Origin: Halomonas sp.
GTDB taxonomy: Bacteria > Pseudomonadota > Gammaproteobacteria > Pseudomonadales > Halomonadaceae
Assembly: GCF_020832045.1 (NCBI RefSeq)
Contig: NZ_JAFIFK010000065.1
Location: 1 to 64,000, forward strand
DNA: 64,000 bases
Direction: 5' to 3'
Shown: piece by piece, positions 2,225-34,084 of the stretch
Layout: each line of letters opens with the position of its first letter
How positions within the stretch are numbered: position 1 is the stretch's first letter
The notes under the pieces: model-generated
What the model saw: the letters and a program-made list of their open reading frames with translations, nothing else
What the model was told of the DNA's origin: nothing
Database searches by the model: none
Program-made: the position numbers and the translations under genes

Positions 2225-2764
2225 ATGTTGATTCTAGGAATCGATCCTGGCTCGCGCATCACCGGCTACGGCGTGCTCGATGTCAGCACACCCAAACCGC
2301 GCTATGTGGCCAGCGGTTGCATTCGCCTGCAGGATGTCGAGCTGTCGCAGCGCTTGGCACGCATCTATGCCGGCATCGCTGAGCTCATTTCCCTGCATCG
2401 TCCGGGCGAACTGGCCATCGAGCAGGTGTTCATGGCTAAGAATCCGGATTCCGCGCTGAAGCTGGGCCAGGCGCGCGGTGCGGCGATCGTCTGTGCTGCC
2501 AATCACGGCCTGGCAGTGAATGAATACGGGCCGCGTCAGATCAAGCAGGCCGTCACCGGCAGTGGGGCGGCGGCCAAGGCACAGGTACAGCACATGGTGG
2601 TGGCTATTTTGGGGCTCGATGGGGTCCCCCAGGCCGATGCCGCCGATGCGCTGGCCATCGCCCTGACTCACGCTCACGCCAGGCTGGGCCTGATTCATCA
2701 GGGTAGTTTCGGCGGTCATCGGGCGCGCCGAAGGGGCGGGTCATGGCGCGATTACCAACCCTGA
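2225..2764 (+). CDS. ruvC: Holliday junction resolvase RuvC
   Basis: A 179-residue endonuclease that resolves Holliday junctions by paired nicks, working with the RuvAB motor. The RNase H-like fold is evident: the first acidic residue in [13 protein letters not shown] at the N-terminus, the Glu in [14 protein letters not shown] (about 66-79), the GQARG segment, and the C-terminal acidic pair in [14 protein letters not shown] (about 139-152). A GAGGAAG ribosome-binding site precedes the ATG. It heads the ruvCAB cluster and is separated from ruvA by 134 bp that contain a small inverted repeat (CTGGTC at 2817 and GACCAG at 2835) but no LexA box that I can recognise. Confidence 0.96.
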
Positions 2765-2898
2765 AACGAGCGGGGTCAGGGGGATCGAATAATTGTCGAA
2801 CACCGTTTACTCTAGACTGGTCAGCCGCTTGAGCGACCAGTATAGTGGCGCCAGGAAGGCTTAGTAACCTGATGTTCTTGGATGGATAGTGGAGCCCC

Positions 2899-3513
2899 AT
2901 GATCGGACGCCTGCGTGGCACCCTGCTCGACAAGCAACCGCCCTGGCTGGTCGTTGACGTGGCCGGCGTAGGATACGAACTCGAGGCATCGATGACCACT
3001 CTGGTGGCGCTGCCCGGGGTGGGCGAAGCGGTTTCCCTCTACACGCACCTGACTGTGCGCGAAGATGCTCATCTGCTGTTCGGCTTCGCCCGTGAGCAGG
3101 AGAGGGCCCTGTTTCGTGCCCTGATCCGTGTCAATGGCGTCGGCCCCAAGCTGGCATTGGCCATTCTTTCGGGGATGGACGAATCGGCCTTCATCCGCTG
3201 CGTGATGGAGGACGATGTGAAATCGCTGACGCGGCTGCCGGGCGTGGGTAAGAAGACGGCCGAGCGACTGATCATCGAGATGCGCGACCGCTTTCCTCAC
3301 TGGGAGCATCCAGGTGAGCTTGGGCTTCCCGCCGTCTCGCAGGAGGCACAGGCGGGGGGCAGAAACCAGGATCCACTGGTCGATGCCGAGGCCGCGTTGG
3401 TCAGCTTGGGCTACAAGCCCACCGAGGCGGCGAAGATGCTTTCAGGGCTGGACGAAGGCCTGTCCACCGAGGCCATGATCAAGGCTGCCCTGACCAGGCG
3501 CATGGCTGGGTAG
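2899..3513 (+). CDS. ruvA: Holliday junction DNA helicase subunit RuvA
   Basis: A 204-residue junction-binding subunit that tetramerises on four-way DNA and recruits RuvB rings for branch migration. The N-terminal OB-fold domain begins MIGRLRGTLLDKQPPWLVVD. Two helix-hairpin-helix motifs are visible: VNGVGPKLALAIL (about 79-91) and LPGVGKKTAERLIIEM (about 114-129). The C-terminal domain III (about 155-204) ends with ALVSLGYKPTEAAKML, which contacts RuvB. Length is normal. It lies between ruvC and ruvB, with a terminator-like hairpin before ruvB. Confidence 0.96.
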   Translation: MIGRLRGTLLDKQPPWLVVDVAGVGYELEASMTTLVALPGVGEAVSLYTHLTVREDAHLLFGFAREQERALFRALIRVNGVGPKLALAILSGMDESAFIRCVMEDDVKSLTRLPGVGKKTAERLIIEMRDRFPHWEHPGELGLPAVSQEAQAGGRNQDPLVDAEAALVSLGYKPTEAAKMLSGLDEGLSTEAMIKAALTRRMAG

Positions 3514-3570
3514 GAGCAACGCATGGCATGCATCGGCCCAGCGCGTCCCCACCTCGACCAGAGCGAGGAT

Positions 3571-3595
3571 GGTGGCACCGCCACCCTGTTTTTTC
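3571..3595 (+). terminator. Intrinsic terminator-like hairpin between ruvA and ruvB
   Basis: GGTGGC / ACC / GCCACC forms a 6-bp GC-rich stem with a 3-nt loop, followed immediately by CTGTTTTTTC. Stem plus six-T tract is the classic Rho-independent layout. Its place inside the ruvAB cluster, 23 bp before the ruvB start, suggests partial termination or attenuation, so ruvB and the downstream genes may have their own promoter. Confidence 0.75.
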
Positions 3596-3617
3596 ATGAA
3601 CGCCATGAGTGTTCGAC

Positions 3618-4655
3618 ATGATGCAAAATGACCGTCTGATCGCCGCCGATGAGCGCGAGGGTGAAAGCCGCGTCGACCACGCGATTCGCCCCAAGAGCCT
3701 GGCCGAATACATCGGCCAGCCGCGCATGCGCGAGCAGATGGAAATCTTCATTCGTGCCGCTCGCGGGCGTGAGGAGAGTCTCGACCACACGCTGGTGTTC
3801 GGGCCGCCGGGGCTGGGCAAGACCACGCTCGCCAACATCATTGCCGCTGAAATGGGGGTGGGGCTCAAGTCCACCTCCGGGCCGGTACTCGAGCGTGCCG
3901 GCGATCTGGCGGCGATGCTTACCAACCTGCAGCCGGGCGATGTGCTCTTCATCGATGAAATCCATCGCCTGTCACCGGTGGTGGAGGAAATTCTCTATCC
4001 CGCCATGGAGGATTTTCAGCTCGATATCGTCATCGGCGAAGGGCCGGCGGCTCGCTCGATCAAGCTCGACCTCCCGCCTTTTACGCTGGTGGGTGCGACC
4101 ACCCGTGCGGGCTTGCTCACGTCGCCGTTGCGCGACCGCTTTGGTATCGTCCAGCGCCTGGAGTTCTACGCTATCGATGAACTCACCGAGATCGTGGCGC
4201 GCTCCGCCAGACTCCTCGGGGTCGAAGCCAATCTCGACGGCGCCCGTGAAGTGGCTCGGCGCTCACGAGGAACGCCGCGTATCGCCAATCGTCTGCTGCG
4301 CAGGGTGCGTGACTTCGCTCAGGTGCGCGGCAACGGTCGGGTGGACGCGGAGCTGGCCGATCAGGCACTGAACATGCTTCACGTCGACCATCATGGGCTC
4401 GATCATATGGACCGTCGCTTGTTGCTGGCCATGATCGAGAAATTCGACGGTGGCCCGGTGGGTATCGATTCGCTGGCGGCGGCCATCGGCGAAGAGCGCG
4501 ATACCATCGAGGACGTGATCGAGCCCTACCTGATACAGCAAGGACTGATGATGCGCACGGCCCGGGGCCGGGTCGTCACCCGTCAGGCCTGGCAGCATTT
4601 CGGCCTCGTGCCCAACGAGCAGGCACAAGATGCGAGCGGTGAGGTGCGTAAGTGA
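3618..4655 (+). CDS. ruvB: Holliday junction branch-migration ATPase RuvB
   Basis: An AAA+ ATPase of 345 residues from the chosen ATG; it forms hexameric rings that pump DNA through RuvA-bound junctions. Walker [10 protein letters not shown] (near residue 60), Walker B LFIDEIHR (near 110), sensor region [12 protein letters not shown] and the C-terminal winged-helix domain (about 265-345, with [13 protein letters not shown]) are visible. Start choice: a GTG at 3609 and ATGs at 3618 and 3621 are in frame; GAGTG at 3607-3611 gives sensible spacing to 3618. The last 4 bp overlap the GTG start of ybgC, implying translational coupling. Confidence 0.95.
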
Positions 4656-5047
4656 GTGAATTTCAGCTACCGCTGCGCGTTTACATCGAGGATACCGATG
4701 CCGGTGGCATCGTCTACTACGTCAACTATCTCAAGTACATGGAGCGGGCACGCAGTGAATGGCTTCGCCATCACGGCTTCACCCAGCGCGAACTGCTCGA
4801 TGCCGGCGTTCAGCTGGTGGTGCATCGACTGGAGTGTCGCTATGCCAAGCCCGCCCGTCTCGACGATCAGCTTTGCGCTACCGCAGCTATCGAATCGAGC
4901 GGACGCTGTCGATTGAGCTTTTGTCAGTCGGTGCAGCGTAGTGGGGAACCCTTATGCGAAGCGCGAGTCGACATCGCCTGTCTGGATGCGTCGCGCCTCA
5001 AACCCAGACCCTGGCCGCCGGCACTTGCCGCGGTTATCAATGCTTGA
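4652..5047 (+). CDS. ybgC: Tol-Pal-associated acyl-CoA thioesterase YbgC
   Basis: A 131-residue hot-dog-fold thioesterase. The active-site signature [20 protein letters not shown] at residues 10-29 carries the catalytic Asp found in the 4-hydroxybenzoyl-CoA thioesterase/YbgC family. It is the usual first gene of the tol-pal cluster and is thought to act on short acyl-CoA or phospholipid-related substrates at the inner membrane. The GTG start overlaps the ruvB stop (GTGA) and follows a GGTGAGG ribosome-binding site. tolQ starts 23 bp downstream. Confidence 0.94.
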
Positions 5048-5070
5048 ATGCAAGATCAGCGAGGATGCCC

Positions 5071-5760
5071 GTGAACGACTCCATGTCTATACCCCACCTG
5101 ATCATGAGCGCCAGCACCGTGGTGCAGCTGGTCATGCTGATCCTGGTGATAGGTTCGATACTCTCGTGGGTAGTGATTTTCCAGCGCACGTTCGTCATGC
5201 GCCGGGCGCGTGCCGCGCACCAGGCTTTCGAGGAGCGCTTCTGGTCAGGGGTAGATCTCAACGAGCTCTACCGTGAAACCCCCTCGGAGCAGGAAACTCA
5301 GGGCGCCGAGCAGGTCTTCCGTGCCGGTTTTCGTGAATTCAATCGCCTGATGCCCAAGACCAAGAGTGCCGATGCCATTCTCGACGGCGTGCAGCGCAGC
5401 ATGCGGGTCGCATGGTCACGCGAAGAGGAGCGCCTGACCCTGCACCTCGTTTTTCTGGCTACGGTGGCCTCGGCGAGTCCTTATATCGGCCTGTTCGGTA
5501 CCGTATGGGGCATCATGGGCTCGTTCCAGGCACTCTCCATGGCGCAGCAGGCCACGCTGGCTACCGTTGCCCCCTGGATCGCCGAAGCCTTGATCGCAAC
5601 CGCCATGGGCCTGTTCGCCGCTATCCCGGCAGTAATCTTCTTCAACCGGCTGTCGTCCGAGTCCGATCGCCTGCTGGGCAAGTACGAGGACTTTGCCGAG
5701 GAGTTTCACTCCATCCTGCACCGCAATCTGCAGGGTCGCAGCGAAGCCAGCACCGCCTGA
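5071..5760 (+). CDS. tolQ: Tol-Pal inner-membrane motor protein TolQ
   Basis: A 229-residue member of the TolQ/ExbB/MotA proton-channel family. It forms the stator with TolR that uses proton-motive force to energise TolA during outer-membrane constriction. Three membrane segments are visible: about 12-35 (VVQLVMLILVIGSILSWVVI), about 130-155 (VFLATVASASPYIGLFGTVW) and about 165-195 (IAEALIATAMGLFAAIPAVI). Start choice: the reading frame is open far upstream into ybgC, but GAGG at 5061-5064 is 6 nt from a GTG at 5071, giving MNDSMSIPHLIM, a family-like N-terminus. ATGs at 5065 and 5083 are alternatives. Confidence 0.94.
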   Translation: MNDSMSIPHLIMSASTVVQLVMLILVIGSILSWVVIFQRTFVMRRARAAHQAFEERFWSGVDLNELYRETPSEQETQGAEQVFRAGFREFNRLMPKTKSADAILDGVQRSMRVAWSREEERLTLHLVFLATVASASPYIGLFGTVWGIMGSFQALSMAQQATLATVAPWIAEALIATAMGLFAAIPAVIFFNRLSSESDRLLGKYEDFAEEFHSILHRNLQGRSEASTA

Positions 5761-5772
5761 GGGAGTCGCGAC

Positions 5773-6210
5773 ATGCATGGTCCGTTCAATCGCGGCGGTC
5801 GCCGCAAGCCGATGGGGGAGATCAACGTCGTCCCCTTCATCGATGTCATGTTGGTGCTGCTGGTCATCTTCATGATCACGGCGCCCATGTTGACCCAGGG
5901 TGTCCAGGTCGAGCTGCCCCAAGTCACGTCCGAGCCGCTCGAGTCGCAGGAAGACCGCGACCCCATCATCGTCTCGGTGGATCGGGAGGGGGGGTACTAC
6001 CTGTCGATCGGTGGCGAAGAGATGGCCGTCGACCTCCAGGAGTTGGGCGATCGCGTGCTCATCCTGCTCGAGCAGCAACCCGGCACGCCCGTCATGGTGC
6101 GCGGTGATCGTTTCGTGCCCTACGGGGAAATCGTGACCCTGATGAGCACGCTCCAAGTCTCCGGGGTTGCCAACGTGGGCCTGCTATCCGAGCCGCCAGC
6201 GCGTGATTAA
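5773..6210 (+). CDS. tolR: Tol-Pal motor protein TolR
   Basis: A 145-residue ExbD/TolR protein with a single N-terminal membrane helix and a periplasmic domain. The helix begins INVVPFIDVMLVLLVIFM (about 17-34), and its Asp is the conserved proton-carrying residue. The periplasmic part (about 45-145) has the TolR fold with DRDPIIVSVDREGGYYLSI. It pairs with TolQ and contacts TolA. A GGGAGTC ribosome-binding site precedes the ATG, 12 bp after the tolQ stop. Confidence 0.95.
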   Translation: MHGPFNRGGRRKPMGEINVVPFIDVMLVLLVIFMITAPMLTQGVQVELPQVTSEPLESQEDRDPIIVSVDREGGYYLSIGGEEMAVDLQELGDRVLILLEQQPGTPVMVRGDRFVPYGEIVTLMSTLQVSGVANVGLLSEPPARD

Positions 6211-6241
6211 GAGTCGCTTGATCAAGAGATTAGGAGACGTG

Positions 6242-7504
6242 ATGGCCCGACGTCAGCGCGGCCCTATGCCCGTCAATGATGGGCCTGTCGGCTATGGCGT
6301 GCCCACTTTACTAGCGATTGGCCTGCACGTACTGGTCGTGGTGCTCAGCTTGATCACCTTGCCCCAACGCCAGTCGGAGATACCCGAGTCGACCTCCATC
6401 GTCCAGGCAACGCTGGTGAGCACCGAAACCACGACCGATCAGGCCCAGCGTGCCGAAGAGGCGCGCGCACGTGCTGCGGCTCGCCAGGCTGAGGATGAGG
6501 CTCGCGAGGAAGAGGCGGCCCGGCAGGCCGAAGCCGAAGAGCAGGCCCGCGCGGAAGCTGAGCGTCAGGCTGCCGAAGAGCAGGCGCGCGAGGCCGAACA
6601 GCAGCAGCAGGCACGTGAAGAGGAGGCCCGTCGCCTGCAGGAGTCGCGCCAGGAAGCCGAAGCCGAAGCCCAGCGTCGTGCCGAGGAAGCCGAGCGCCAG
6701 ACGCGTCTGCGTGAGGAGCAGGAGGCCGAGCGTCAGCGTCAGCAGGAAGCGGCGGCGGAAGCCGAGCGGCAGCGTCAACTCGAAGCCCAACAGCGTGCTG
6801 AAGAGGAAGCCCAGCGCCAGCAGGAGGCCGAAGCCCAGCGTCAGCGCGAGGCCGAAGCCCAGCGTCAGCGCGAGGCCGAAGAGCAGCGTCGCCGCGAGGA
6901 GGAAGCTCAGCGCCAGCGCGAGGCCGAGGAGCAGCAGCGTCGTGAGCAGGAGGCACAGCAACAGCGCGAGGCCGAAGAGCAGCGTCGCCGCGAGGAGGAG
7001 GCTCAGCGTGAGCGTGAAGCCGAGGAGCAGCGCCAGCGCGAGGCGGAAGCCCAGCGTCAGCGTGAGGAGGAAGCTCGACGCGCCGCCGAGGCCGAGGCGC
7101 AGCGTCAGCGCGAGGAGGAGGCGCGGCGCGCCGCCGAAGCTGCTAGCCAGGGGCTGGACCGCGCCATCGAAGGCGAATCGGATGCGGTAGCCAATGCCCG
7201 TCAGGCGCAGGAAGCGGCCAATAGCTTCATCAATCTGGTTCGTCGTGCAGTGGAACAGGCCTGGGTGATTCCGCCAGGCTCCAGCGGTGGACTGGCGGCG
7301 ACGGTTCAGGTCCAGTTGGGCCCCTCCGGTGAGCTGTTTGGCGCTACCATTAGTCAGAGTAGTGGGGACGGCACCTTCGACCGATCTGCGCTACAGGCAG
7401 TGGAAGCCGCCGCACCGTTTAATGAACTGCGTCAGCTGCCAGCAGCGGCGCAACGTGACTTCCGACAGTTCAATCTGCGTTTCACACCGGGAGATGTACG
7501 CTGA
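6242..7504 (+). CDS. tolA: Cell-envelope integrity protein TolA
   Basis: A 420-residue TolA spanning the periplasm from the inner membrane towards Pal and TolB. A membrane helix at about 21-42 ([20 protein letters not shown]) is followed by a very long Ala/Glu/Arg/Gln-rich helical domain (about 60-305) and a C-terminal domain (about 330-420) with [16 protein letters not shown]-like sequence, which binds TolB and Pal. The frame is open upstream to 6167 inside tolR; TAGGAG at 6231-6236 selects the ATG at 6242. The helical region contains near-identical DNA repeats, so its length may vary between strains. The 3' end overlaps the tolB start (TGATG). Confidence 0.93.
6871..7008 (+). repeat. 96-bp-spaced direct repeat inside tolA
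   Basis: The 42 bp at 6871-6912 recur at 6967-7008 with a single mismatch, a spacing of 96 bp or 32 codons. Shorter copies of the same EAQRQREAE-type codon string surround them. The repeat keeps frame and heptad-like periodicity, as expected for internal duplication within the TolA helical domain. Confidence 0.85.
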
Positions 7505-29490: not shown

Positions 29491-29886
29491 ATGATCGTTC
29501 GCAATCTCGAGGAAGCACGCAAGACGGATCGGCTGGTCAAGTCGGAAAGCGGCACCTGGGACAGTACACGCCTGGTGCTGGCCAATGACGGCGGCGGCTT
29601 TTCCTTTCACATTACGCGGATCTACGAAGGTACCGAAACGCACATCCACTACAAGCACCACTATGAATCGGTGTACTGCATAGAGGGTGAAGGTGAAGTC
29701 GAAACCTTGGCCGACGGCAAGATCTGGCCGATCAAACCCGGCGACATCTATGTTCTCGACCAGCATGACGAGCATCTGCTGCGCGCACACAAGACCATGC
29801 ATCTAGCCTGTGTTTTCACGCCGCCGATCACAGGCAAGGAAGTGCATCGCGAAGACGGATCCTACGCACCGGCCGATGAAGGCTGA
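29491..29886 (+). CDS. ectC: L-ectoine synthase EctC
   Basis: A 131-residue cupin that cyclises N-gamma-acetyl-diaminobutyrate to the compatible solute ectoine, using a metal cofactor. The cupin motifs are [24 protein letters not shown] (about 47-70) and [17 protein letters not shown] (about 90-106). GGGAGTG precedes the ATG. No ask_ect aspartokinase or ectD hydroxylase gene is adjacent, so hydroxyectoine synthesis, if any, is encoded elsewhere. A textbook terminator follows. Confidence 0.97.
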
Positions 29887-29905
29887 TTCGACGCGACACG
29901 CATTT

Positions 29906-29940
29906 CGGACCCCGGTGCTGGCCGGGGTCCGTTGTTTTTA
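29906..29940 (+). terminator. Intrinsic terminator of ectABC
   Basis: CGGACCCCGG / TGCTGG / CCGGGGTCCG is a perfect 10-bp stem with a 6-nt loop followed by TTGTTTTTA, 20 bp beyond the ectC stop. A strong Rho-independent terminator closing the ectoine operon. Confidence 0.93.
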
Positions 29941-30011
29941 GCGTATGACGTTGTGTCGTATGCCATGTAAGTAGCCGCTTCGACCATCTGCTAGACCATA
30001 CCAGTAGTTCG

Positions 30012-30027
30012 CATAATGTATATTATG
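30012..30027. promoter_or_regulatory. AT-rich palindrome upstream of the retropepsin/transglutaminase/ligase operon
   Basis: CATAAT-GTAT-ATTATG, perfect 6-bp arms around a 4-bp centre, lies in a locally AT-rich stretch 150 bp before the lipoprotein start. It is a plausible operator or part of a promoter; no known regulator consensus is claimed. The rest of the 291-bp gap 29887-30177 holds the ectC terminator and no convincing gene. Confidence 0.35.
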
Positions 30028-30177
30028 TTAAATCGGCTTTTGGTCAGGACGTTGGACAAGCCCACCTTGAAATCCTTATCATTCCTCGTCATGCTCCGGC
30101 GCGTTCGATGCAAGCGCCAAATATCTCGTTCACCCTTGCTGCGCTCGTCCGTAGCCCCATCGGAGGCTGTCGAATCC

Positions 30178-31032
30178 ATGCAACCCAGAACGCTATCCGC
30201 CCCCCTCGCCTGGTTGCTGGGCTCGTTGCTGATCAGCGGTTGCGCCCTTGACCCCACCTCTCATTCTGCTCCTGAGCCTTCTTTGAGCCCTGAGGCCTTC
30301 GAGGCTCGTATGGGGCAGCTCGAAGACCAGATGGCCTTGCGCTGCGATCGAGCCGACTCCCACTTGATGCGTCAGGATCAACGCCAAGCCGAGTTTCTTT
30401 CGGAAATGCGCGACATGGGCCTGACATTGCGTCACCTGCGGGGAGACATCGAACGGCTCGAGCAGCGTGGCGAAGAACCGGTCGTGGTTCCCGCCGAGTG
30501 CAATAACGAACTGGACGAGTCGCTTTCCTCCAAGGAGTTGGTCGGTCGCGCCGAGTGGATTGGCCTGCCGGAAATCGGCACCTATCTTCGTGCACGGGTC
30601 GATTCCGGCGCCAACACCTCCTCACTGAGTGCCACGGACGTTACGCGCTTCGAGCGCGACGGTGAGGACTGGGTTCGCTTCAAGCTAGGCCTCACCGATG
30701 ACGACATCGTCGTCGAGAACGTGCGCGACGAGTGGATCGAGCGCCCTGTCGAGCGTCGCGTGCGCATCCTGCAGGCCGCCGGCAGTGAATCGCGCCCGGT
30801 GGTCAGCCTGCTGATGTCAATGGGTCCCATTCGAGAAACGGTGGAATTCACCCTCAGCGATCGCACCCATCTCGATTATCCGGTGCTGCTCGGACGCCGC
30901 TTTCTCATGGATATCGCGCTGATCGACGTTGCCGAAAACTACATCCATCCTCGCCCCGAATTCCCTGGTGGACGTCCTGCCGCCGAGGCGGCGGAGGATG
31001 AAATCAACGATCGCGATGAAGATGAAGGCTGA
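30178..31032 (+). CDS. Lipoprotein with retropepsin-like domain (RimB / ATP-dependent zinc protease family, PF05618)
   Basis: A 284-residue protein. Its signal peptide ends in a lipobox LLISGC with Cys at about 21, predicting lipidation. A short coiled coil (about 40-95) is followed by the Zn_protease/RimB-type domain: SKELVGRAEWIGLP (about 118), the aspartic-protease-like RARVDSGANTSSLSA with Asp142, and DYPVLLGRRFLMDIALID near 250. Despite its database name, the fold is retropepsin-like with one DSGA motif per chain, so a dimer would be needed. A highly acidic tail follows (residues 262-284). GGAGG at 30162 supports this start. First gene of a three-gene operon with the next two; substrate unknown, possibly the ligase product. 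Confidence 0.85.
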   Translation: MQPRTLSAPLAWLLGSLLISGCALDPTSHSAPEPSLSPEAFEARMGQLEDQMALRCDRADSHLMRQDQRQAEFLSEMRDMGLTLRHLRGDIERLEQRGEEPVVVPAECNNELDESLSSKELVGRAEWIGLPEIGTYLRARVDSGANTSSLSATDVTRFERDGEDWVRFKLGLTDDDIVVENVRDEWIERPVERRVRILQAAGSESRPVVSLLMSMGPIRETVEFTLSDRTHLDYPVLLGRRFLMDIALIDVAENYIHPRPEFPGGRPAAEAAEDEINDRDEDEG

Positions 31033-31067
31033 TCTCCAGCCTGTTGCCCTGTCTGCAAGGAAGAAAC

Positions 31068-32573
31068 ATGTCACGACTGCCCTTCTATCTCCTCGTGGGT
31101 CTGCTGATGGCGCTTGGCATCGGCACCAGCCTGCATCGGCACATTCAGATGGAGGTGCCATGGACCCCGGGAGAGCAGCGGCAGGTATGGGAAGTTGAAG
31201 CCATTGTCGACTTCACCGCGCTCGGCAATCCCGTACGCGTCGACCTGGCACTGCCCACACACCAGCGTGGCTACCGTATCCTGACCGAGAATACCGCCTC
31301 TCCGGGCTATGGTCTGTCGTTCCTTCAGGATGAGTCGGGGCGTCGGGCCCAGTGGTCCATTCGCAATGCAACGGGCAGCCAGCAGCTCTACTACTCGGTT
31401 CGTCTCCAGGTAACCGAGGACCGACGTCAGCGCCAGATGGTTCGTCCTGCGCTGCGTGAAGTGAGCTGGGATCGACCCTACGATACCGCCGCGGCTCAAG
31501 TCATCGAACGCGCCTGGATGCGGAGCTCCGATCCCTACACCTTTGCCCGAGAGCTGATTCATGACTTCAGCGAGGATCGTCAGGGCGAGAATGCACGCCT
31601 GTTGCTGACTCAGTTCGAGCGAACCCCCCTGCTGGTTCGGCTGCTCAATCAAGCCGGCGTGCATGCACGCGAGGTCAGCGGACTCGTGCTGGAAGATGGC
31701 CGTCGGCGCCAGACACTGACATCCTGGATCATGGTGTTCCACGATGAGGAAAACTGGGCGCTGTTCAATCCGCGCACTGCCGATCAGGGCCAGCCGGAAA
31801 ACCTGCTGCTGTGGGAGGCTGGTGGGCGCGCCGTGCTCGAAGTTCAAGGGGGAACCAACTCACGGGTTACGTTCTCCATGCTGTCGCGCAGTCAGCCGGC
31901 GGCGGCTGCCGTGCGTAGCCAGCTGGCCGAGGACACCCTGCTCAACTTCTCGATCCACAGCCTGCCCCTCGAAGAGCAGGCCATTTTCCAGACCATTCTG
32001 CTGATTCCCATCGGGGCGCTGGTGGTCGTATTTCTGCGCATCATGGTGGGTATCAAGACATCGGGTACCTTCATGCCCGTGTTGATCGCCCTGGCCTTCA
32101 TACAGACGACTCTGGCGACCGGGTTGATAGGCTTTTTGCTGATCGTCGCCGTGGGACTGGTGATCCGAAACTATCTCTCCTACTTGAACCTGCTGCTTGT
32201 GGCGCGAGTATCGGCGGTCATCATCACCGTCATCGCCATCATTTCAATCTTCTCCGTCCTCTCCTACCGTGTGGGCCTGAACGCCGGACTGACGATCACC
32301 TTCTTCCCGATGATCATCCTGGCCTGGACCATCGAGCGGATGTCGATCCTGTGGGAAGAGGAAGGACCCAAGCAGGTCTTGATTCAGGGCGGCGGGAGTC
32401 TTCTAACGGCGGTGCTGGCGTATCTGGCCATGAACAATCCCTGGATTCGGCACATCACCTTCAACTTCCTGGGCGTTCAACTCATCATCATGGCTCTGAT
32501 CATGCTGTTGGGTAACTACACGGGCTATCGTCTGCTCGAGCTGCGGCGCTTCAAGCCGGTCACCGAGGATTGA
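31068..32573 (+). CDS. Inactive-transglutaminase/7TM membrane protein
   Basis: A 501-residue membrane protein. An N-terminal anchor (about 5-20) is followed by a large extracytoplasmic domain (about 25-300) of the inactive transglutaminase family. The core helix ENARLLLTQFERTPLLVRLLNQAGVHAREV has no Cys where active transglutaminases carry the nucleophile. Seven hydrophobic helices fill the C-terminal 200 residues (from AIFQTILLIPIGALVVVFLR), with LLEEE-type soluble loop ILWEEEGPKQVLI between the last ones. AAGGAAG precedes the ATG. The stop TGA lies 5 bp before the next start. Likely a periplasmic peptide-binding membrane partner of the adjacent retropepsin lipoprotein and ligase. Confidence 0.85.
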   Translation: MSRLPFYLLVGLLMALGIGTSLHRHIQMEVPWTPGEQRQVWEVEAIVDFTALGNPVRVDLALPTHQRGYRILTENTASPGYGLSFLQDESGRRAQWSIRNATGSQQLYYSVRLQVTEDRRQRQMVRPALREVSWDRPYDTAAAQVIERAWMRSSDPYTFARELIHDFSEDRQGENARLLLTQFERTPLLVRLLNQAGVHAREVSGLVLEDGRRRQTLTSWIMVFHDEENWALFNPRTADQGQPENLLLWEAGGRAVLEVQGGTNSRVTFSMLSRSQPAAAAVRSQLAEDTLLNFSIHSLPLEEQAIFQTILLIPIGALVVVFLRIMVGIKTSGTFMPVLIALAFIQTTLATGLIGFLLIVAVGLVIRNYLSYLNLLLVARVSAVIITVIAIISIFSVLSYRVGLNAGLTITFFPMIILAWTIERMSILWEEEGPKQVLIQGGGSLLTAVLAYLAMNNPWIRHITFNFLGVQLIIMALIMLLGNYTGYRLLELRRFKPVTED

Positions 32574-32578
32574 GCACC

Positions 32579-33574
32579 ATGTGGGCATGGCCAAGCCAGC
32601 TGAGTAGTCGCGGCATCATCGGCATGAACCGGCGTAACATCCGCTACATCGGGCGTTACAACAACCGTCGCCTCTACCCACTGGTGGACGACAAGTTGAA
32701 GACCAAACTGCTGGCGGAGAAGTATGGCATCACCACCCCGGCGCTGATCGGTACGGTTACCACCCAGTTCGAGGTCAAGCATGTCGATGAGATGATTGCC
32801 GGGCACGACGGTTTCGTCATCAAGCCTGCCAAGGGTAGCGGTGGCAAGGGTATCCTGGTCATCGAGCGCGTCGACGGCGATGCCTTCATCAAGCCCAGTG
32901 GCGCCCGTCTCAGCCTGACGGATCTGCATCGCCACATCTCCAATATCCTCTCGGGACTCTACTCGTTGGGGGGAACACCGGACGTTGCGATGATCGAGGC
33001 GCTGATCAATTTCGACGAAAAACTCTCCGAATACACCTACGAGGGCGTGCCTGACATTCGGGTGATCATCTTTCGTGGTTATCCGGTAATGGCGATGATG
33101 CGTCTCTCCACCGCTGCCTCCGACGGCAAGGCAAACTTGCATCAGGGAGCCGTCGGCGTGGGACTCGACATCGCCACGGGGACCGCGGTACGCGGCGTTC
33201 AATTCGACCGCTCACGTCTCGATCATCCGGATACCGGCCACGAACTCTCCAGCCTGCTGATTCCCGACTGGAGCGGCCTACTGGAGCTGGCCGCAGGCTG
33301 CTACGAGATGACCGGCCTGGGCTATCTTGGCACCGACATGGTCATCGACCGCAATCTGGGCCCCATGCTGCTCGAGCTCAACGCGCGTCCCGGCCTTGCC
33401 ATACAGATGGCCAACGGGGAGGGATTGCGGCCGCGTCTGGACCTGGTGGAGAAGCAGCCTGAAGGGCTTGACGTCAAGCAGCGGGTCGCCTTTGCACAGC
33501 GCCATTTCGCTCGTCGGGGCGTGCTCAAGAACCGCTCGGAACCCGAGCTGGCTCCGTCCAGCCTCAGCACGTAG
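32579..33574 (+). CDS. RimK-like alpha-L-glutamate ligase-family ATP-grasp protein
   Basis: A 331-residue ATP-grasp ligase related to RimK, which adds glutamates to ribosomal protein S6. ATP-binding FVIKPAKGSGGKGILVIE (about 77-94), DIRVIIFRGYPV (about 158), ANLHQGAVGVGLDIATG (about 183) and the metal-binding MLLELNARPGLAIQ (about 262) are all intact, so it should be enzymatically active. The N-terminus is short and atypical (starts MWAWPSQ). The acceptor is unknown. Start: GAGGA at 32565-32569 is 9 bp before this ATG; an in-frame TTG lies at 32570. Tight spacing to the 7TM gene implies one operon. Confidence 0.85.
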   Translation: MWAWPSQLSSRGIIGMNRRNIRYIGRYNNRRLYPLVDDKLKTKLLAEKYGITTPALIGTVTTQFEVKHVDEMIAGHDGFVIKPAKGSGGKGILVIERVDGDAFIKPSGARLSLTDLHRHISNILSGLYSLGGTPDVAMIEALINFDEKLSEYTYEGVPDIRVIIFRGYPVMAMMRLSTAASDGKANLHQGAVGVGLDIATGTAVRGVQFDRSRLDHPDTGHELSSLLIPDWSGLLELAAGCYEMTGLGYLGTDMVIDRNLGPMLLELNARPGLAIQMANGEGLRPRLDLVEKQPEGLDVKQRVAFAQRHFARRGVLKNRSEPELAPSSLST

Positions 33575-33576
33575 AA

Positions 33577-33589
33577 TGAACGCTGTTCA
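33577..33589. promoter_or_regulatory. Small inverted repeat before zur
   Basis: TGAAC-GCT-GTTCA is a perfect 5-bp inverted repeat directly after the ligase stop and 18 bp before the zur start. It could be an operator for the zur-hisI-yidD unit. It does not match the usual Zur box, so the regulator is unassigned. Confidence 0.3.
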
Positions 33590-33607
33590 ATACTTATCGG
33601 CTCAACC

Positions 33608-34084
33608 ATGTCCGACGCTAACGCCCTGCTTGCGCAGGCTGAACGACAATGCCAACTTCGCGGTGTTCGATTCACTCCGATAAGGCGACGAGTCCTCGAG
33701 ATGATTGCGGGGGCCAGTGGCGGCCTGAAAGCCTACGAGCTGCTTGACCGACTGGCCCTCGAGCATGCCGCGGCCCGCCCGCCGACCATTTATCGTGCCC
33801 TCGAATTCTTGATCGAACAGGGCCTCGTCCATCGTATCGAGTCGCTCAATGCCTACGTGGCCTGCCCCTGCCCCGAGCATGCACATGGCTTTCAGCTATT
33901 GATCTGTCGCCATTGTGGACGCGTAGAGGAGCTGCACCTGGACGACGTCAACGCTCAACTCAGTGCCAAGGCGCGCGACCTGGGCTTTCGCGTCGAACGC
34001 CAGACCATCGAACTACTGGGCAGTTGCGACATCTGTCTTTGCGCTCCGCCGCAAGCCAAGCCTGCCACAACGGAAACGCCATGA
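33608..34084 (+). CDS. zur: Fur-family zinc uptake regulator Zur
   Basis: A 158-residue Fur-family repressor. The winged helix spans about 10-85 (GVRFTPIRRRVLEMI; ARPPTIYRALEFLIEQGLVHRIES). Zinc ligands include ACPCPEHAHGFQLLICRHCGRV (about 87-108) and the C-terminal SCDICLC. The CP-C-PEHAHGFQLLIC pattern and short length favour Zur over Fur. No zinc transporter gene is adjacent here. The stop overlaps the hisI start (ATGA). Confidence 0.88.
   Translation: MSDANALLAQAERQCQLRGVRFTPIRRRVLEMIAGASGGLKAYELLDRLALEHAAARPPTIYRALEFLIEQGLVHRIESLNAYVACPCPEHAHGFQLLICRHCGRVEELHLDDVNAQLSAKARDLGFRVERQTIELLGSCDICLCAPPQAKPATTETP

Follow-up and report, generated by a model that had tools for sequence, protein, structure and literature searches.

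The 64,000-nucleotide stretch of a Halomonas sp. genome analysed here (contig NZ_JAFIFK010000065.1, positions 1 to 64,000; hereafter the window) carries at 30178-33574 a co-directional and tightly packed unit of three genes, which was confirmed as real and lies far above chance. The unit is an rlo operon (rloA-rloB-rloC) of the Pseudomonas aeruginosa kind, which was described in 2025 (PMC12239564). Its products are a retropepsin-like peptidase (RloA), a membrane protein with an inactive transglutaminase-like domain and seven transmembrane helices (7TM; RloB), and an ATP-grasp ligase (RloC). We propose, at a little short of an even chance, that RloB and RloC act as an ATP-grasp-driven synthase and exporter of a glutamate-rich chain in the inner membrane, and that RloA trims this chain in the periplasm. 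The sister systems found in a survey of RloB loci give three odd proteins this definite reading, in which an ATP-grasp enzyme makes an amide polymer and a membrane protein lets it through; if it is true, a way of making and exporting a peptide-like polymer has so far been overlooked in Gram-negative bacteria. New here are a spacer-bearing lipoprotein form of RloA, sister operons in which RloB keeps an intact Cys-His-Asp triad, fusions of RloB with RloC, and minimal loci with a 7TM-only RloB. A literature search that did not cover Iyer et al. 2009, who reportedly predicted many amidoligase systems, found no paper on an RloB-RloC fusion or on the sister form with tetratricopeptide repeat (TPR) and barrel proteins.

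The window operon and its proteins

The window has the features by which the rlo family is recognised: the order A-B-C in a co-directional cluster, an exported PF05618 RloA with a D-[ST]-G motif (export was judged by motif), an RloB that joins a Cys-less transglutaminase-like domain to a 7TM domain, and an RloC above the TIGR02291 cut-off. It shares with the P. aeruginosa operon the combination of an exported D-[ST]-G retropepsin, an inactive transglutaminase with 7TM, and an ATP-grasp enzyme. The gap between rloA and rloB is 35 bp. The likelier start of rloC is an ATG at 32579, 5 bp after the stop of rloB; a TTG at 32570, given in the list of open reading frames (ORFs), would overlap rloB by 4 bp. 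With the NCBIfam models that bear rlo names, window RloA reached 121.6 of the 210 bits required for RloA3, 106.9 of 250 for RloA2 and 86.4 of 280 for RloA1, and window RloB 333.9 of 900 for RloB. The proteins were therefore filed under none of these four names.

RloA has a lipobox (LISGC) after a hydrophobic stretch, with Ala at position +2, and a PF05618 domain at about 30541-30954 (130.5 bits, E 5e-38) with the motif D-S-G-A. According to the Lol rule, the residue at +2 of a lipoprotein predicts its membrane destination, and an Asp at this position bears on sorting. We compared the protein with those of the named loci, which are the best 80 of 582 confirmed matches of an RloB profile scan, a choice that favours close relatives; the closest named relatives among the matches listed belong to Billgrantia. 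RloC is present in all 80 of these loci and RloA in 79, and the genes stand in the order A-B-C on one strand in 79, the 80th (L104) beginning inside rloB. In 73 of the 79 a lipobox preceded by a hydrophobic stretch is followed by a spacer, 79-119 residues long (median 90), in front of the domain; inspection by eye showed a lipobox in five of the remaining six, and the N-terminus of the last was unreadable. Since Asp occurs at +2 in none of the 73, the Lol rule predicts the outer membrane as their destination. Eight RloA ORFs were sampled from other groups: six were short and had no spacer, one had lipobox and spacer, and one had a lipobox-like start and was cut by the end of its stretch. From its sequence, window RloA is predicted to be an outer-membrane lipoprotein with a spacer of about 90 residues, in contrast to the short form seen in several other groups. 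This is also where it differs from the P. aeruginosa operon; the word "lipoprotein" is absent from the main text of PMC12239564, and the NCBI RloA1 model is only 178 positions long. Two further PF05618 genes lie in the window genome. G000:C89 (L059 7462-8133) is an RloA3, with 246.7 bits above the cut-off of 210, and G000:C63 (L060 7205-7663) is RimB-like, with 117.9 bits below the cut-off of 200, and has no signal.

RloB matched PF14400 (E 4e-56) and PF14402 (E 3e-109, about 31830-32561), and the Pfam scan gave no match to PF01841 (Transglut_core). It has none of Cys, His and Asp at the alignment columns where triad-intact relatives carry them. RloC matched the ATP-grasp family PF14397 (E 1e-94) and TIGR02291, "alpha-L-glutamate ligase-like" (444.8 bits, cut-off 314.2), and the RimK family PF08443 weakly (E 1.9e-6). 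Its residues K85, E269 and N271 (numbered from the TTG at 32570), among others, are conserved to at least 97% in an alignment of 92 rows that spans all three architectures described below and counts the window's own genome twice; R273 is replaced by His in both rows from minimal loci.

An earlier note on this DNA, made without database searches, had described three tightly spaced genes for a lipoprotein with a DSGA retropepsin-like domain, a 7TM protein whose transglutaminase-like domain lacks the nucleophilic Cys, and a RimK-like ATP-grasp enzyme. All three genes were found where it had placed them, on the plus strand, and the descriptions agree with the matches above, with the additions that RloB has lost His and Asp as well and that the resemblance to the RimK family itself is weak. 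The note was right to see a unit of three families. Its term "uncharacterised", however, did not stand, as the rlo operon had been described in 2025 (PMC12239564).

RloB loci with and without RloA

RloB loci were collected in four PF14402 searches of 200, 78, 240 and 274 genomes, samples that overlap, with matches in 34, 5, 12 and 57 genomes. The survey table contains 98 RloB loci from 97 genomes; G590, with a Pfam hit below the cut-off and no RloB by profile, was left out. The loci fall into four groups. The first comprises 81 RloA-type loci with no Cys at the aligned column, in which RloA lies directly upstream in 77 and RloC directly downstream in 78; of the three with no RloC, two (G747 and G625) are truncated by the end of their contig, and G485 truly lacks the gene at the locus. 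A survey of this kind had been suggested in the earlier note as a check on the co-occurrence of the three families, and it did not refute the claim. The second group consists of 11 triad-intact loci, which keep Cys, His and Asp: all have RloC, either after RloB or fused to it, and none has RloA upstream. The third group is made up of two minimal loci, which have no transglutaminase domain and in both of which RloC follows RloB. Four divergent transglutaminase-7TM proteins with no adjoining RloC (L199, L200, L201 and L203, from G569, G643, G721 and G703) were counted apart. The division between RloA-type and triad-intact loci uses one alignment column per residue, and at least 10 RloA-type rows still have a His beside the His column. 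G548, a bin with 6% contamination, has one locus of each of these two types. In four of six triad-intact genomes checked, PF05618 is absent genome-wide.

Triad-intact RloB is matched by Transglut_core (PF01841) above the cut-off in all three proteins scanned (E 6e-15 to 1.5e-18). In two cases RloB and RloC form a single open frame with Transglut_core, 7TM and ATP-grasp parts and the triad intact: G499 (L153 / L191), with 845 amino acids, and G688 (L198), with 853. In G548b, RloC is split over two overlapping frames. A TPR gene follows RloB-RloC in 11 of the 11 triad-intact loci, and a barrel-like gene comes next in nine; the contig ends in G096, and G688 has none. The eight barrel-like proteins first read are 372-412 amino acids long, and most begin like a signal peptide. 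Both gene types were found by clustering in ten loci and the profiles were built from those proteins, so that only the TPR gene of G096 and the TPR and barrel genes of G275 are finds independent of the profiles. The barrel of G060, the only one given to NCBIfam, resembles the polysaccharide outer-membrane protein EpsL at E 4e-6, with 26.1 of 275 bits, far below the cut-off. Apart from RloB, RloC and the TPR and barrel genes, none was shared by more than 3 of the 10 triad-intact neighbourhoods compared.

Some further genes were seen at these loci. A related small membrane protein precedes triad-intact rloB in L055, L056 and L047 (that of L047 is a weak PepSY_TM match, E 1.6e-4, below the cut-off), and another related gene does so in L194, L195 and L197, the L197 copy starting like a lipoprotein. 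The minimal locus L045 (G131) has at 2674-6919 a RimB, a RimK, a barrel-like exported protein, the 7TM-only RloB and RloC in a row. Among the divergent proteins, G643 and G703 have an adjoining RloA-like gene on the opposite strand, and G721 has one elsewhere in the stretch.

A proposed synthase and exporter, and its rivals

In P. aeruginosa, RloA cuts runs of at least eight Glu in vitro, among its substrates being RpsF with eight C-terminal Glu, and the operon affects biofilm, tolerance to cell-wall antibiotics, cell shape and survival at low osmolarity. A triple rloA mutant does not grow at low osmolarity; deletion of rloB or rloC in this mutant restores that growth fully and the other defects partly. 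As possible RloA substrates the authors name post-translationally glutamylated proteins and free poly-alpha-glutamate (PMC12239564 for all of these results). The in vitro specificity suggests that the chain is rich in Glu, and the recovery of rloA mutants that also lack rloB or rloC argues that an uncut product harms the cell. This epistasis and the cleavage of Glu runs agree with the earlier note, which had read the unit as combining an enzyme that makes amide bonds, a possible peptide cutter and a membrane partner. Its functional reading as a whole was partly supported: these three roles stood, and the inference from ectoine (see below) did not.

In the mechanism that we favour, cytosolic RloC would build an amide-linked chain from glutamate, or from a unit rich in it, on the side of RloB that faces the cytosol, and the 7TM domain of RloB would pass the growing chain across the inner membrane. 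There the periplasmic transglutaminase-fold domain would handle the chain, and RloA would cut it to length. Window RloA may be tethered to the outer membrane, and because of its lipid anchor and long spacer it could meet RloB across the periplasm. One N-terminal transmembrane helix and seven further ones would put the C-terminus of RloB in the cytosol, which is where the ligase is fused in the sister proteins, and the fusion itself argues for a single machine made up of ligase and membrane part. In the sister systems the intact transglutaminase domain may process the chain instead of RloA, and the chain appears to be handed on via the TPR scaffold and the outer-membrane barrel.

The 7TM domain and RloC are common to three builds, and the parts outside the inner membrane vary, which suggests that RloB-RloC make and move the product and that the rest decides its fate. 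RloB-RloC may therefore be the core of an undescribed class of ATP-grasp-driven amide-polymer synthases and exporters, a wider claim that we hold with clearly less confidence than the first and think somewhat doubtful. The class would have at least three builds: an RloA-trimmed periplasmic one, to which the window would belong; one with active transglutaminase, TPR protein and EpsL-like barrel, sometimes fused, for secretion through the outer membrane; and a minimal one of 7TM, ligase and barrel.

The layout has known parallels. The polyglutamate systems PgsBCA/CapBCA-CapD consist of a cytosolic amide ligase, a small polytopic membrane protein and a cutter outside the membrane, the same working layout as in rlo; PgsB, however, is an enzyme of the Mur-ligase type, whereas RloC is an ATP-grasp enzyme. 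In synthase-dependent exopolymer secretion (BcsC, PgaA, AlgK/AlgE) the outer half usually consists of a TPR protein and an outer-membrane barrel, and the sister operons resemble exopolysaccharide systems of this kind in their TPR and barrel-like proteins. They differ in having an ATP-grasp ligase in place of a glycosyltransferase, and the window operon has neither a TPR nor a barrel gene.

Several observations weigh against the synthase and exporter. The identity of the chain, its synthesis by RloC and its transport by RloB are what we infer, as are the product and the RloC substrate, and loss of rloB or of rloC alone already causes mild defects (PMC12239564). No tie between the RloB 7TM domain and known transporters or polymer exporters was established by sequence or fold comparison. 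A search with the full RloB model (pLDDT, the predicted local distance difference test, 77; pTM, the predicted template modelling score, 0.53) gave for the 7TM fold at best an Rnf subunit at Z 7.7, rated by the tool as a common arrangement; a 7TM-only model had a pLDDT of 62.6, and at the sequence level the 7TM alignment hit no solved structure. Homology to CapC/PgsC, suggested by eye, could not be established: hhalign against the CapC repeats of one bacterial class was not significant. Against a PgsC sequence hhalign gave a score of 21.9, with 1 of 60 column shuffles higher (24.6), and the Pfam matches of 21 RloB members did not include CapC.

The outer parts of the sister systems are also weakly defined, which counts on the same side. 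The G060 barrel matched BBP2_2 weakly (E 0.06) and the G499 barrel matched OMP_b-brl just under the cut-off (E 3e-6). The G060 TPR protein matched many unrelated TPR families, all below the cut-off, with PrsT best, then MamA and PilW, and BcsC and PgaA far weaker; its family therefore says little. A signal-peptide gene stands directly before RloB in the minimal loci and matched the barrel profile weakly (E 0.0019 and 0.0051). In that search, of 4,377 background ORFs and 17 loci, E 1 was otherwise reached only by profile members, the G275 barrel and second copies of the same places; one of the two minimal-locus proteins matched DUF481 at E 0.026. At E 1e-3 neither the TPR nor the barrel profile had a match in the window, in four wide RloA-type loci or in the 80 named loci, whose sequence ends no more than about 4 kb beyond RloC; for the window, export out of the cell therefore does not apply.

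The swap between RloA and an active triad likewise carries less weight than its counts suggest. In a tree of 96 7TM domains (G747 and G703 were too short and left out) the triad-intact rows group in a single clade (98/96); the two fusions have long branches there, and the tool warns that joins of this kind may be spurious. The swap is therefore at best one evolutionary split, and the naive Fisher p of 2.5e-11 for RloA versus triad does not stand for 11 independent cases. Two of the six triad-intact genomes checked (G096 and G499) have a PF05618 gene elsewhere. Four of the 81 RloA-type loci have no local RloA (G193, G674, G631 and G485). G193 has two PF05618 genes elsewhere in its genome; in G485 the contig begins inside rloB, neither RloC nor RloA was found at the locus, and the genome, 99% complete, gave no PF05618 match.

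The main rival is tagging of the RimK/RimB type in the envelope: RloC would glutamylate a protein or a lipid-linked precursor, RloB would hold or flip it, RloA would remove the Glu tail, and no free polymer would be made. RloA and RloC are related to RimB and RimK, as domain matches and PMC12239564 indicate, the same source reports the cleavage of glutamate-tailed RpsF, and glutamylated substrates are a possibility named there. We nevertheless regard this rival as unlikely. RimB-RimK, which glutamylates ribosomal protein S6, pairs a retropepsin with an ATP-grasp glutamate ligase as rlo does, but it is cytosolic and has no membrane partner. Window RloA does not qualify as cytosolic, given its lipobox after a hydrophobic stretch, and the window genome has a separate RimB-like gene (G000:C63). 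With RloC in the cytosol and RloA exported, a target, once modified, would need to be moved across the membrane; the TPR and barrel-like genes beside the sister systems speak for a product made in bulk, and the triad-intact neighbourhoods show no shared target gene.

The best Pfam family of RloC, PF14397, is named "sugar-transfer associated ATP-grasp". This name is a further point against the synthase of a glutamate-rich chain, because the acceptor of RloC need not be a peptide, and it favours another rival, in which RloC attaches an amino acid to a glycan, either a polysaccharide or a lipid-linked one, RloB exports the glycan together with the TPR and barrel proteins, and RloA trims peptide side chains. 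The EpsL-like barrel of one sister operon fits this as well. However, the window operon has no sugar enzyme of its own, and the comparison of the 10 triad-intact neighbourhoods, with no scan aimed at glycosyltransferases, brought out no extra gene in more than three; we consider a glycan product distinctly unlikely.

Still less probable, to our mind, is a sensor or regulator of peptidoglycan or turgor, in which the dead transglutaminase domain of RloB would bind wall peptides, RloA would cut RloB or a partner, and RloC would make a small signalling peptide. The predicted fold of that domain matches 3isr, a putative cysteine protease, with Z 13.6 and a root-mean-square deviation of 3.8 over 214 residues, and the cell-shape, cell-wall-antibiotic and low-osmolarity defects of the P. 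aeruginosa mutants (PMC12239564) would suit a sensor; the triad-intact RloB-RloC fusions and their TPR neighbours, however, fit catalysis better than sensing.

Three other candidates were rejected. A PF14102 match in G214, considered as a bridge between families, looks by eye like a CtaA-type haem synthase instead. Loci with tandem CapC (L034 and others) were not kept as rlo relatives, as no ATP-grasp link was seen, with L049 the only one scanned. In L034-L038 and L049 (5344-15112), from a class that also has triad-intact RloB, two tandem CapC domains are followed by a long C-terminal part; in L049 the two genes after the tandem-CapC gene have no Pfam match and the gene before it encodes a CHASE2 protein. 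The Zetaproteobacterial stalk cluster sfz was dropped as a counterpart: in the text of PMC8250860, "transglutaminase" and "ATP-grasp" are absent and the genes are described otherwise.

The ectoine neighbourhood

The features of the locus are collected in Table 1. The coding sequence of ectC ends at 29886, and rloA starts 291 bp further on. The earlier note had put the operon directly after ectABC; the adjacency is real, but the terminator-like hairpin lies in between. In 29700-33700 two sigma-70-like sites were found, compared with a mean of 1.4 in shuffles, and the site listed in front of rloA is therefore no evidence of a promoter.

Table 1. The rlo locus in the window: coordinates of genes and signals
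Feature	Position	Strand	Description
Intrinsic-terminator-like hairpin	29906..29931	+	3' of ectC, between ectABC and rlo; 11 pairs, 9 G-C, then TTGTTTTTAG
Weak sigma-70-like site TGGACA-18-TATCAT	30053..30082	+	5' of rloA
rloA	30178..31032	+	284 amino acids; retropepsin-like aspartic peptidase, predicted outer-membrane lipoprotein, PF05618
rloB	31068..32573	+	501 amino acids; N-terminal transmembrane helix, PF14400 transglutaminase-like domain without Cys/His/Asp, PF14402 7TM
rloC	32579..33574 (start approximate)	+	RimK-related ATP-grasp ligase; PF14397, TIGR02291

EctC lies upstream in 23 of the 80 named loci, all of them among the 34 loci that are Halomonadaceae by genus name. The flanking stretch of the other 57, including every non-Halomonadaceae locus, has no EctC, and Vibrio, Aeromonas, Photobacterium and Psychromonas have the same rlo operon without it. 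The ectoine neighbour is therefore a habit of this family and not part of the rlo system. An ectoine-linked osmoprotectant operon specific to halophiles would account for the short distance from ectC to rloA and for the 23 Halomonadaceae loci; we give it hardly any weight, since a terminator separates the two genes, most named loci have no EctC, and the P. aeruginosa phenotype appears at low, not high, osmolarity (PMC12239564). A common operon with the ectoine genes was rejected on the terminator and the EctC distribution. An osmotic role, which the earlier note had read from the ectoine genes, exists as a phenotype in survival at low osmolarity (PMC12239564); the inference from ectoine fell with the same two findings. 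On the other side of the operon, the window has a Fur-family regulator at 33608-34084, 3' of rloC, and a Fur-family gene occupies this place in 34 of the 80 named loci, which are all the Halomonadaceae loci by genus name.

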